64,000 nt of DNA, from assembly GCF_001913705.1 (NCBI RefSeq), contig NZ_MKQD01000034.1:1-64000 (forward strand), in the 5' to 3' direction. Position 1 is the first letter of the stretch; every line of letters starts with the position of its first letter. The translations under genes and the position numbers were made by a program. The notes beneath the pieces were generated by a model. It was not told the origin of the DNA, did not search any database, and saw nothing but the letters and a program-made list of their open reading frames with translations. The stretch comes from Thalassotalea sp. PP2-459 (GTDB lineage: Bacteria > Pseudomonadota > Gammaproteobacteria > Enterobacterales > Alteromonadaceae). Of this stretch, positions 35,891 through 50,488 are shown one piece after another.

Positions 35891-35930
35891 TTGTCATGAA
35901 ATTGTCACGTTTTTATCTTTCTAGTGTCAT
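35891..35930 (+). promoter_or_regulatory. Pho box (PhoB site)
   Basis: TTGTCAT (35891-35897), GAAA, TTGTCAC (35902-35908) is the 7-4-7 direct repeat of the PhoB consensus CTGTCAT-AWAW-CTGTCAY, with the first T in place of C in both halves. A third half, GTGTCAT at 35924-35930, is in exact 22-base phase. AT-rich bases with TATAAA-like elements follow, and the lipoprotein phosphodiesterase begins at 35989. Phosphate-starvation control is strongly suggested. Confidence 0.7.
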
Positions 35931-35950
35931 CAAAAAATATAAAAATATAT

Positions 35951-35964
35951 CTGGTCTAGACCAG
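35951..35964. promoter_or_regulatory. Palindrome CTGGTCTAGACCAG near transcript start
   Basis: A perfect 14-base palindrome 24 bases before the start codon and near the likely transcript start of the Pho-box promoter. Its core TGGTCTAGACCA equals the known operator core of GntR/HutC-type regulators such as DasR and NagR. It could be a repressor site for such a regulator, or a 5' mRNA hairpin. Confidence 0.5.
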
Positions 35965-35988
35965 TTGTGTTTTTATATAGAGGAAATT

Positions 35989-37956
35989 ATGAACTTTACA
36001 AAGAAAGAACTTAAGAAAGCAATTGCTTGCATTTGGGGCTTATCAGCTCTTGTGTTGGTAGGTTGTAATGATAGTGAGACTCAGCAAACTTCAATTATTA
36101 CAGCGGATAAAGATCCAGAGAAAAGGGTGCTAGTTATTGGTATTGATGGTCTGATGTATGACTATATTGATGATATAGATAATGTTGATATGAATGAACC
36201 GGTGCTACAGCACTTTCCACGATTAAGCATTTCAAAAGCACTTGCTGGAGGTTACCTAGGTACTCAGAGCCACCAAGCTAGCTCGTCGGGACCATCTTGG
36301 TCAACAATTTTAACTGGGACATGGGTTGATGGACACTCAATAAGTTCGAATAATAACCAGCCAGCCAAAACGAAGACTGTTTTTGAATATCTTCACAACG
36401 CCGATAGCACTATTGATATGGCAAGTTTTGCAGCATGGTCTCCAATAAATACAGGCCATGCTGCTAATGGAATGCCGTTACTTAAGCAACGCGCTGATGG
36501 TAGCGCAAGACCAAGTAATATGTCAGTTGATGAGTTTATCGCCACAAAATTAGTAAACGAACTAAAGGATGAAGATTCAAATTTAGATTTTATCTTCACT
36601 CACCTAGATGAAATTGATGGTGCTGGGCATACGTGTGGATGGTGTACGTCATATGAGGAAGTACTGTCTAAAATTGATAACTTATTAGGTCAAGTTTTAG
36701 ACGCTGTTGAATACAGAGAATCAAACCTAAATGAACAATGGTTAGTTTTAGTTGTTTCTGATCATGGTCATGTTAAAACTGGTGGTCATGGTGGGGATTC
36801 TATTGAAGAACGTACTTCGGTTATCGGAACAAATAAACCAGATTTAATGAATGAACTGTTTGCCAATAACTCGAGCGTATTTTCACTAGCTAGTGAAGAG
36901 CAAAATGTACTGATGGGATACCCTGGAATAACTGCGATAGTTCCGACTGTGTTGCATTATTTAGGCTATGAACTCAACGCTGAACATCAATTTTCTAGTC
37001 CTTCGTTGATTGGAAACGTTGGTTTAAAAAATAGTTACATACAAACAGAACAACCACTTTCAACAAGTGTTACGAATAAAATAAGTTGGCGTGCAACATC
37101 CGATGTTAATACGGTTAGTATTTTTAGGGGAGATGAGAAAATAGCAGAAGTTTCTGCTAGTGACGAATCATTTGAAGATATAATCACCTTGGATATTTTA
37201 CCTGAAGGAGATCATCATCTTGCTTATACATTAAAGCCAAATACTGGGAATAGCATTACGGCTTGGACAAAGTTTGCAATAGGTGAGGCAGCATCTGTTG
37301 ATACTGTGCTTGAAGATGTTGCGGAACATGTTAGCTTTCAAGAGAGTATTTCTCCATTTAGTTTTATTTCAAACAATGCAGATTCTGTGATTTATGAAAA
37401 AGGCCCTTTTGATTCAGGCAAAGCGCTCCGTATCAATAGAGATGATGGCTATTTGACAACTCCAATTTCATTCCAGGATGTTACACAGAGAACCTTGGGA
37501 TTTTGGTTGAAAGTAAACGGTGAAATTACAAGTGATCCTAACGTGATTTCAAATAAAAACTGGGATAGTGGTAGTAATCCAGGATTTACAATTGCCATTA
37601 CAAATTCCAGTTTAAAATTGAATATAGGTGACGGTGTAAACCGATCTGATATTTCATTACCTTATACCAAAGATACATGGATATTTGTTGTTGCAAGCTT
37701 TGATCTGATAAACAATGAAATAGCGTTATATATTCAAGATCCAAATTTAGGGTTTCAAGAAAGTAAATCTTCTTCATCTAATGTTGCATCGTTAGCCTCA
37801 GAGTTTCCGTTGAACATAGCTGAGGGTGGTGATGGCGATTATAACCTCAATTCCATCATAGATATATCAATGGCTGATTTGTTAATTTTTAATCGAGTAT
37901 TAGCGAATAATGAGGCGAGAGCTTTGTCGAATATTGAAACTAGAGTGAGTTTTTAA
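35989..37956 (+). CDS. Lipoprotein type I phosphodiesterase/nucleotide pyrophosphatase with LamG-like domain
   Basis: 655 residues from the ATG at 35989 (GAGGAAAT before it); the open frame runs 53 codons further up through the Pho box and is not coding there. Lipobox LVLVGC with C26. The alkaline-phosphatase-superfamily core (about 40-330) shows metal and nucleophile motifs: RVLVIGIDGLMYDY, SSGPSWSTILTGTW, THLDEIDGAGHTCGW and VSDHGHVKTGGHGG. A beta domain follows, then a concanavalin/LamG-like C-terminal domain (about 465-650). It likely cleaves phosphodiesters or pyrophosphates at the surface to scavenge phosphate, consistent with the upstream Pho box. Exact substrate unknown. Confidence 0.8.
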   Translation: MNFTKKELKKAIACIWGLSALVLVGCNDSETQQTSIITADKDPEKRVLVIGIDGLMYDYIDDIDNVDMNEPVLQHFPRLSISKALAGGYLGTQSHQASSSGPSWSTILTGTWVDGHSISSNNNQPAKTKTVFEYLHNADSTIDMASFAAWSPINTGHAANGMPLLKQRADGSARPSNMSVDEFIATKLVNELKDEDSNLDFIFTHLDEIDGAGHTCGWCTSYEEVLSKIDNLLGQVLDAVEYRESNLNEQWLVLVVSDHGHVKTGGHGGDSIEERTSVIGTNKPDLMNELFANNSSVFSLASEEQNVLMGYPGITAIVPTVLHYLGYELNAEHQFSSPSLIGNVGLKNSYIQTEQPLSTSVTNKISWRATSDVNTVSIFRGDEKIAEVSASDESFEDIITLDILPEGDHHLAYTLKPNTGNSITAWTKFAIGEAASVDTVLEDVAEHVSFQESISPFSFISNNADSVIYEKGPFDSGKALRINRDDGYLTTPISFQDVTQRTLGFWLKVNGEITSDPNVISNKNWDSGSNPGFTIAITNSSLKLNIGDGVNRSDISLPYTKDTWIFVVASFDLINNEIALYIQDPNLGFQESKSSSSNVASLASEFPLNIAEGGDGDYNLNSIIDISMADLLIFNRVLANNEARALSNIETRVSF

Positions 37957-49327: not shown

Positions 49328-50488
49328 TTAATTAATTTTAGGAGGGATTAGAATGTTCGTATCGAAGTTAAATAACTTTCCGCTCCAAATAAATACTTGC
49401 CACACTAAAACACCAAAAGGAATATATCCAAAGTAGCCTAATAACGGCATTTCCGAGAATATATGGATGACATCGACATACGGAATATTATAAACCCAGT
49501 AATTTGGGTTTGTGATCGGCTCTGGGTTAGGATTACTAGAACCAAAGTTCCACATTTCCCAAAATAAACCGTTCAATAATGAGGATACACCAATCAGTAC
49601 GCCTGCACTCCAGTTTCCTTTGGCGATATCGGTGAAGGGGTTCCAAATGTTTAAGCGCATAAGTATACCAGTCATAACTGCGTAAGGGCCGATCCATACA
49701 ACCCAAAACAACGCATACGGCCAGTAAACCATAGCGGCAATAAGTAATGCGCCGATAAAGATCATATAATTACCGTTTAATGGCATTTTGGGGCCGTTTT
49801 GGTATCGTGCGACTAGTTTAGGAAAAGTGTTTAACAAATTATACCAAGTAAGAATTACCGGGGTGACAGTTGAGTAGGTAATGAGAAATTCAATAACGAT
49901 AGTTGCTCTAGACCAACCTACTTGATTCGCGTTAGGGTAAAACCAGTTACCTAATACGAAATAATCGTAGTATTCAAAGTACGCCCAGCCAACGATTGAA
50001 ACCAACGCACTGATGAACAATGTTTTTGGTTTTTCTGAAAATAAGGATGCCCCGTTATTCCGCTGATATACAATGCCGTCTAGAAGGAAGATAAACCCCC
50101 ACCAAAGTGGTGTAAACGCCCAAAAAACCAGATCGCCAAAGGGGGTAACGCGGGTCCACATTAACCACCAGAAAAAGCCCATTACAACGCCACCACACCA
50201 AAACCACCACGGTAGAGATACCATTGAAGGTTGACGAGGTTTTGCGGTTGCGCCCTTAAAACCGAATAGCTTTGGAAATAAAATCAGGCCAGTAATAAAA
50301 AGCGCACTGGCTGCCATGATTAAAAAGTAGGTTAAACTAAACCCTGGTACTTTTCCGGCGAAAGTGGGGGGAAATTCACCAAAGCCTGGTGGAAGGTGGT
50401 TAGGGTATACAAACCAAGCGACCACCAGAGGGACTAATAAAGTGAGTAATATTGGCCATAATAGCTGCCATGGTGTAACTTTTTGCAT
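49328..50488 (-). CDS. Trp-rich polytopic membrane protein, unknown function
   Basis: 386 residues with about nine hydrophobic helices, extremely rich in tryptophan. Two related halves can be seen: the first contains TPLWWGFIFLLDGIVYQRNN and WAYFEYYDYFVLGNWFYPN, the second SSLLNGLFWEMWNFGSSN then PNYWVYNIPYVDV and EMPLLGYFGYIPFGVLV. The paired FE/N-W-Y and WE-WN/W-Y patterns suggest an internal duplication. I have no named family. Its gene lies between the TonB receptor and HAD hydrolase genes. A Fur-like site stands just before its start. Confidence 0.75.
   Translation of the reverse strand: MQKVTPWQLLWPILLTLLVPLVVAWFVYPNHLPPGFGEFPPTFAGKVPGFSLTYFLIMAASALFITGLILFPKLFGFKGATAKPRQPSMVSLPWWFWCGGVVMGFFWWLMWTRVTPFGDLVFWAFTPLWWGFIFLLDGIVYQRNNGASLFSEKPKTLFISALVSIVGWAYFEYYDYFVLGNWFYPNANQVGWSRATIVIEFLITYSTVTPVILTWYNLLNTFPKLVARYQNGPKMPLNGNYMIFIGALLIAAMVYWPYALFWVVWIGPYAVMTGILMRLNIWNPFTDIAKGNWSAGVLIGVSSLLNGLFWEMWNFGSSNPNPEPITNPNYWVYNIPYVDVIHIFSEMPLLGYFGYIPFGVLVWQVFIWSGKLFNFDTNILIPPKIN

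Follow-up and report, generated by a model that had tools for sequence, protein, structure and literature searches.

Known phnWX clusters for the breakdown of 2-aminoethylphosphonate (AEP) begin from the free compound, which enters through an importer of the ABC or another type. A large part of biological phosphonate is bound within lipids and glycans; an enzyme to free it has been postulated and not named. Alkaline-phosphatase-like enzymes, with phosphonate monoester hydrolase (PMH) as a candidate, are postulated to free phosphonate esters from marine polysaccharides, and PMH acts on phosphonate monoesters and phosphodiesters, as set out in the accessible part of that study (PMC5649143). In Pseudomonas putida BIRD-1, PhoBR, NtrBC or CbrAB is combined with the LysR regulator AepR for AEP use, which its authors, in the portion at hand, present as the first study of its kind (PMC9311074). 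A GntR protein of Salmonella falls in the PhnR clade, according to the available excerpt of PMC5351497. The available portions of PMC8316502, PMC9381506 and PMC10574752 do not mention ‘TonB’, nor do they name an esterase that acts on AEP conjugates at the cell surface. Such an esterase is likewise undescribed in the titles and abstract openings of the open-licence matches listed, which is weak evidence of absence. Here, we describe a lipoprotein phosphoesterase gene and its promoter (positions 35,891 to 37,956) in a 64,000-nucleotide stretch of Thalassotalea sp. PP2-459 (contig NZ_MKQD01000034.1, positions 1 to 64,000), hereafter the window.

We read this gene as a member of the AEP regulon that encodes an outer-membrane lipoprotein esterase of the NPP branch, made when phosphate is low and AEP is present, and releasing AEP from its conjugates (probability about 0.6). 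The anatomy of the gene, the operators that it shares with AEP genes and its genomic linkage to them were established by computation. The gene is thereby a testable candidate for the postulated step: shared operators connect this one gene with AEP breakdown in three lineages, and in two of them it clusters physically with AEP genes (one genome of a second genus, g19, and three or four of Marinobacter).

Promoter and operator of the lipoprotein gene

The features of the locus are as follows.

35891 to 35930, plus strand: PhoB binding region of four half-sites in 11-bp phase, the third weak (sequence reading, consensus score and shuffles)
35891 to 35897, 35902 to 35908, 35913 to 35919 and 35924 to 35930, plus strand: PhoB half-sites TTGTCAT, TTGTCAC, TTATCTT and GTGTCAT, respectively
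35938 to 35943, plus strand: TATAAA, a possible -10-like hexamer picked by eye with low confidence and not kept in the g19 genome G781
35951 to 35964, no strand assigned: operator CTGGTCTAGACCAG, predicted to bind PhnR (GntR/HutC) and placed at the transcript start or close to it
35980 to 35986, plus strand: ribosome-binding site GAGGAAA, read directly
35989 to 37956, plus strand: lipoprotein phosphoesterase of 655 residues, presumed outer-membrane, with lipobox LVGC and the codon of C26 at 36064 to 36066
36118 to 37017, plus strand: catalytic domain of the alkaline phosphatase superfamily, residues 44 to 343, with nucleophile S100 at 36286 to 36288
37336 to 37953, plus strand: C-terminal Laminin_G_3 domain (concanavalin-A-like jelly-roll), presumed to bind a polymer or lipid surface

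The first two half-sites matched the PhoB consensus at 14 of 14 positions, a score not reached once when the 100 bp preceding the operator were dinucleotide-shuffled 1000 times. Only one site in the window, on both strands, scored at least 13. The promoter thus has the sequence feature expected of a Pho regulon member, at least two 7-bp direct repeats spaced by 11 bp and close to a promoter. A preliminary description of this DNA, made from its letters, had claimed a near-consensus PhoB site with a phased third half, and the site was confirmed with one phased half-site more than claimed. Across the whole genome, TGTCA-N6-TGTCA occurred at 13 places on both strands, the lipoprotein promoter among them, versus 4 for the reversed control.

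Twenty bases past the PhoB region lies CTGGTCTAGACCAG, a perfect 14-bp palindrome. It occupies the place near the likely start where a GntR-type operator had been proposed. The start codon is the ATG at 35989, which GAGGAAA precedes. A longer in-frame open reading frame (ORF) from 35830 was dismissed because it would enclose the promoter, operator and ribosome-binding site and would make the lipobox internal.

Operator copies at aminoethylphosphonate genes

The 12-mer core of the operator, TGGTCTAGACCA, occurred once in the window and three times in the 4,079,998-bp genome, where 0.17 copies are expected (P for at least three, ~7e-4). Of the other two exact copies, one begins 37 bp ahead of phnW and one 57 bp ahead of a TonB receptor ORF. 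The latter ORF opens a close-packed operon on one strand, which continues with a DUF5690 carrier, phnX, an aminophosphonate oxidoreductase (TIGR03329), an HD oxygenase (TIGR03276, matched below that model's cut-off) and phnR. These families were assigned by NCBIfam models, with TIGR03337, TIGR02326 and TIGR01422 for PhnR/phnWX-type clusters. The preliminary description had proposed looking for the palindrome upstream of GntR/HutC genes of the same genome, and a copy heads this operon, which ends in phnR. PhnR is a GntR/UTRA (GntR/HutC) protein (contig C34, L005:10149-10853) with TIGR03337 as by far its best model, and it is likely the protein that binds CTGGTCTAGACCAG, a prediction from the sequences. 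The lipoprotein gene, phnW and the phn operon have the operator in common, as members of one PhnR (AEP) regulon would.

The carrier gene of the operon (PF18943, L005:13749-15092, minus strand) lies between the TonB receptor gene and phnX, and its product may carry AEP or a derivative across the inner membrane. Adjoining the AEP cluster on the same contig (L005:769-6548, minus strand) is a run of genes for a TonB receptor, an acid-phosphatase-like metallophosphoesterase and a phytase-like beta-propeller, named by eye, which we read as an organic-phosphorus island.

Five genomes of the genus held 3, 3, 3, 0 and 2 operator copies: the window genome (G000), G001 (same species and so not independent), T. 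marina (G002), G003 and G004, respectively. The two further operators of T. marina stand at phnW (68%) and the TonB receptor (82%). G004, which has a PhnR of 213.9 bits and no lipoprotein gene, carries its two operators at the same two genes. G003, with no operator copies, has no PhnR-class regulator; its best TIGR03337 match reached 78.9 bits, and weaker HutC/GntR matches are present.

This distribution bears on the origin of the signal. The preliminary description had assigned the palindrome core to DasR/NagR, which we take to be correct for the core itself, and had proposed that a surface enzyme on phosphorylated sugars or similar polymers answers jointly to phosphate and an amino-sugar-type signal. 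A DasR/NagR-type amino-sugar regulator would then bind the site, and the enzyme would act on phosphorylated amino-sugar polymers. The nearest solved relatives of PhnR by sequence are indeed YvoA, presumably NagR of B. subtilis, and DasR, and a distant homologue of the lipoprotein gene follows nagA in an operon (see below). The likeness of the operator core is explained by this kinship of PhnR: the regulator family is the same and the job is another. The remaining exact copies in the window genome, T. marina and G004 stand at AEP genes, and none was found at an amino-sugar gene in these three genomes. The window genome has two sites with one mismatch, both within ORFs, at 49904 in the window and at C54:139936 in an apparent threonyl-tRNA synthetase gene (named by eye). 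G003, in turn, has zero copies despite its weaker HutC/GntR matches. We therefore rejected a DasR/NagR amino-sugar regulon, and regard this explanation as very improbable. Of the joint control first proposed, what stands is the pairing of PhoB with a GntR/HutC repressor, and what falls is the amino-sugar signal. The predicted regulation by PhoB and PhnR is well supported by computation.

The operator was also examined in the second genus, g19, which is probably Pseudoalteromonas with two-replicon genomes. In 108 genomes of this genus, 37 PhnR loci were found and 20 were fetched. A TonB receptor gene was located in 19 of the 20 (L163 has none), and the operator preceded all 19. In nine loci phnW had an intact start, and the operator preceded all nine; two partial phnW rows (L150 and L163) were excluded from this count, the L150 row being a TonB-receptor site viewed from the wrong end. 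The operator pattern matched 30 times over 261,190 bases of these loci, about 29 of them at phnW or TonB-receptor promoters, so the background is near zero. The motif in this genus is [CT]TGG[AT][CA]TAGACCA[GA], with few exceptions. DUF5690 was present in 18 of the 20 loci, and L159 and L163 lack both DUF5690 and phnX.

Homologues of the gene and their linkage to phosphonate genes

Close homologues of the lipoprotein gene were found in the two genomes of the window species, in T. marina (61%), in the g19 genome G781 (55%) and in Marinobacter (42-47%). The Marinobacter carriers were 5 of 124 genomes with six genes, including a tandem pair in M. zhejiangensis whose second copy is truncated and lacks the LamG (laminin G-like) domain. 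A palindrome of the operator class stood before the start in all 10 close homologues of these nine genomes, so the conservation on which the preliminary description had made its operator depend was found. The operators are CTGGTCTAGACCAG in Thalassotalea, CTGGTCTATACCAG in G781, and TGGTATATACCA, TGGTATACACCA, TGGCATATACCA (three genes) and TGGACTATACCA in Marinobacter.

A further group of g19 homologues (L021, L108-L116), close to one another, has hemopexin repeats in place of the LamG domain (Pfam was run on L021) and carries TTGGACTAGTCCA ~30 bp before the start; among the nine that are intact, this operator was present in 9 of 9. We read LamG versus hemopexin as a swap of the binding domain. 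In another g19 genome (G775, L117), the homologue is broken by two stops, and the genome lacks PhnR. The scan used for intact homologues found no operator before this gene, which was excluded from the counts of intact carriers. Gene and PhnR were possibly lost together there.

The window, T. marina and G781 share a distance of exactly 60 bp from the start of the Pho region to the operator. These promoters scored 14, 12 and 12 of 14, respectively, reached by 0, 10 and 3 of 1000 shuffles, and the two M. zhejiangensis promoters scored 13 and 13, reached by 0 and 0. Of the 19 intact homologues with an operator, 7 were scored; the remaining Marinobacter promoters were judged by eye and look weaker. 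Among seven phnW and TonB-receptor promoters scored, three had a good Pho match: the window genome TonB receptor (12/14, 8 of 1000 shuffles), and in G266 phnW (13/14, 1 of 1000) and the TonB receptor (12/14, 3 of 1000). No good match was found at phnW of the window genome, G781 or G004 (444 to 999 of 1000 shuffles) or at the G781 TonB receptor (67). Pho control is therefore part of the AEP regulon, though not at each promoter.

Physical linkage was clearest in G781, where the gene lies inside the AEP cluster, between another TonB receptor gene and phnW. The order there is the lipoprotein gene and phnW, and then on the reverse strand phnR, oxidoreductase, phnX, DUF5690 and TonB receptor. In Marinobacter G918, G871 and G870, the gene adjoins a HAD-IB phosphatase gene that borders phnW-phnX-phnS2-ATPase-permease-DUF6. 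These three loci are closely alike and count as one or two independent cases; phnW, phnX and phnS2 were identified by tblastn in all three, and phnS2, phnU2 and phn_DUF6 (under its cut-off) by NCBIfam in G870 only. In Marinobacter G854, the gene is near phnS2, a HAD gene and a gene for a purple-acid-phosphatase-like lipoprotein, and each of the four genes has an operator. In M. zhejiangensis the gene stands apart from the phn genes, and the genome has a phnR-oxidoreductase-phnW-phnX-ABC cluster with operators. The gene is likewise unlinked to AEP genes in the window genome, in T. marina (other contig) and in the nine hemopexin-type carriers, and it was absent from the 20 other g19 AEP loci fetched.

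PhnR was present in 10 of 10 intact g19 carriers versus 37 of 108 genomes overall (hypergeometric 9e-6, with kinship ignored). The lipoprotein gene was missing from 27 of the 37 PhnR genomes of this genus. It is an accessory part of the regulon.

The Marinobacter genomes also show other phosphatases beside these operators. In M. zhejiangensis (L060:6559-10148), a second PhnR-like gene is divergent from two genes for purple-acid-phosphatase-like lipoproteins, with operators TGGTATATACCA and TGGTGTAGACCA, and the corresponding gene of G854 (L177:3532-6150) has operator TTGGTATATACCAG. Judged from these promoters, the purple-acid-phosphatase-like lipoproteins are apparently a second family of surface phosphoesterases under PhnR-type control. 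HAD-IB phosphatase genes carry the same operator class (L059:2066-2079, L177:7903-7916) and are possible further members of the regulon; the G870 copy is histidinol-phosphatase-like, below that model's cut-off.

Catalytic and binding domains, proposed role and known systems

The protein belongs to the phosphodiesterase/pyrophosphatase family, as the preliminary description had held. It matched PF01663 with 62.4 bits against a gathering cut-off of 23, and its lipobox LVGC at residues 23-26 has counterparts LSGC, LLGC, LGGC and LAGC in the orthologues (read by pattern), from which an outer-membrane location would follow. None of D53, S100, D210, H214, D258, H259 and H267 varied among the 15 aligned sequences. 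S100 corresponds to the residue that is changed in the inactive ENPP5 mutant T72A (5veo) and is a serine in place of the usual threonine; the other six residues we take to be metal ligands on the analogy of NPP enzymes. PMH has the formylglycine motif C-x-P-x-R. This motif was absent, with S-G-P-S-W in the window protein and serine at that place in all 15 aligned sequences. The eight full-length proteins of the same branch that were checked have the signature DExDGxGHxCGWC in common.

The two predicted structures were middling (pLDDT 72.4 and 74.6, pTM 0.47 and 0.57), and residues 86-100, up to and including the nucleophile, fell below a pLDDT of 50. Structure searches used the first model. 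Its domain 40-343 matched SPAP alkaline phosphatase (Z 21.3, 258 residues, root-mean-square deviation 3.4), the alkaline sphingomyelinase ENPP7 (Z 20.0, 247 residues, 3.4) and the phosphonate monoester hydrolase 2w8s (Z 20.0, 253 residues, 3.4). NPPs as a group matched at Z ~20-21, and ENPP3, Xac NPP and independent phosphoglycerate mutase were among the matches. Near-tied as they are, these matches of a predicted model point to the fold and not to the substrate. By sequence, the closest solved relatives are ENPP5, ENPP7 and Xac NPP.

The added LamG-like domain of the preliminary description was also recovered. A Pfam scan of the whole protein missed it; residues 450-655 scanned separately matched PF13385 Laminin_G_3 with 32.0 bits against a cut-off of 27.6. 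The domain is beta-rich in both predicted structures. The top Foldseek rows were jelly-roll parts of unrelated lectin-like domains, including clostridial neurotoxin binding domains and CBM40. The C-terminal domains of two orthologues (L019:11354-11974 and L118:4790-5410) also pass PF07953, the jelly-roll of the clostridial neurotoxin binding region, and no toxin catalytic part was seen. We read the PF07953 and Foldseek matches as a common lectin-like fold.

Two other functions have to be weighed against release of AEP. The chief one keeps the same control by PhoB and PhnR, with the enzyme acting as a general phosphodiesterase or head-group hydrolase that frees phosphoethanolamine, glycerophosphate or phosphate from those lipids and glycans that also contain AEP; AEP would then only signal that this material is there. 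The sequence relatives ENPP5, ENPP7 and Xac NPP fit such an enzyme, as do the operator class shared with HAD-IB phosphatase and purple-acid-phosphatase-like lipoprotein genes in Marinobacter and the phytase-like and acid-phosphatase-like genes (named by eye) close to the phn cluster of the window genome. The gene is, however, linked to AEP genes and not to phosphate-ester genes in G781 and three Marinobacter genomes, and PhoB control alone would suffice for a general esterase. We consider this function unlikely. The other is cleavage of the C-P bond outside the cell, like that by phosphonoacetate hydrolase PhnA of the same superfamily. The PF01663 match and membership of a phosphonate regulon agree with it, and PhnA is structurally close to NPPs, as stated in the accessible part of PMC10574752. 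A lipoprotein with a binding domain speaks against it, however, and phnX in the regulon already cleaves C-P. No phosphonate-hydrolase model of NCBIfam matched at 1e-3, a search in which the presence of a PhnA model in the library was not checked. Extracellular C-P cleavage appears highly doubtful.

Several observations weigh against release of AEP under PhoB and PhnR as we read it. PhnR scored 214.9 bits, under the curated TIGR03337 cut-off of 296.75; the Marinobacter operators deviate in the core; and one Marinobacter genome has a second PhnR-like regulator. The hemopexin-type proteins have a plain signal-like N-terminus with no lipobox seen, which makes lipoprotein anchoring a trait of the LamG branch, and their Pho boxes are weak or missing (two promoters scored 11/14 and 10/14, reached by 32 and 172 of 1000 shuffles). 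Nine of ten intact g19 carriers have the gene and phnR on separate contigs, with only G781 in-cluster, and nine of ten are close kin (PhnR 98-100% identical), so that the co-occurrence test is not independent. The gene is rare, in 5 of 395 genomes of the family with distant homologues included, and a class-wide search for the LamG-type protein in 369 genomes returned only its own genome. Most AEP users therefore manage without it, including G004 and the g19 PhnR genomes that lack it. The most distant homologue (G051, 33%, L022:171-2298) lacks LamG and lies downstream of nagA in one operon. Its genome has no good PhnR, and phosphorus linked to amino sugars may be what this branch acts on. Finally, the superfamily is catalytically promiscuous, and AEP conjugates as the substrate we infer from genomic context.

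With these points counted, release of AEP from conjugates remains our preferred reading, at the probability given above. Its conditional parts are the substrate in the first place, and also binding by PhnR, the nature of the inducer and outer-membrane export. In phosphate scarcity, PhoB on the four phased half-sites would recruit polymerase. PhnR would cover the start site by occupying the palindrome until AEP or a breakdown product releases it, and the two controls together would form an AND gate. The LamG domain would keep the enzyme at a polymer or lipid surface, where Ser100 would attack the ester linkage in a phosphonoglycan or phosphonolipid, the AEP conjugate, and free AEP or a small AEP ester. 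Uptake of the product would fall to the TonB receptor and DUF5690 carrier of the same regulon, and PhnW and PhnX, possibly with the oxidoreductase and HD oxygenase, would degrade AEP to phosphate, ammonium and carbon. The surface enzyme acting on phosphorus-bearing polymers that was first proposed is supported in this predicted form. A narrower form, a dedicated outer-membrane phosphonoesterase that strips AEP from phosphonoglycans and phosphonolipids (e.g., AEP on N-acetylhexosamine, ceramide-AEP) and is gated by phosphate hunger and AEP together, we hold at slightly under even odds.

If true, this enzyme would be the missing first step for marine bacteria that reach polymer-bound phosphonate, feeding TonB-dependent uptake of AEP conjugates. 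DUF5690 and the TonB receptor are flagged as likely parts of AEP uptake, and the operator motif can be used to find further regulon members.

Compared with known systems, the operator core and regulator family are those of the DasR and YvoA (NagR) regulons, whereas the targets here are phosphonate and not amino-sugar genes. ENPP7 and other NPPs (PF01663) share the catalytic fold and metal ligands and offer head-group cleavage chemistry as a model; the window protein differs in its serine nucleophile, in its 12-19% identity to the NPP rows listed, and in being a bacterial lipoprotein tied to AEP genes. PMH (2w8s) is of the same superfamily, with a fold match at Z 20.0, but its nucleophile is formylglycine (PMC5649143, part at hand), where the window protein has a serine together with lipoprotein anchoring and a LamG domain. 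AEP control in P. putida BIRD-1 is alike in joining a master regulator of nutrient stress to substrate induction, as far as the available part of PMC9311074 describes it. That system uses the LysR activator AepR, whereas here a GntR/HutC repressor is predicted, with a surface hydrolase as an extra target. The logic of dual control is already known; the regulator class and the target differ. With the PhnR/phnWX clusters, the locus has in common the transaminase, phosphonatase and GntR/UTRA regulator and an operator class that the lipoprotein gene shares. It differs from them in placing a surface phosphoesterase, a TonB receptor and a DUF5690 carrier within the regulon.

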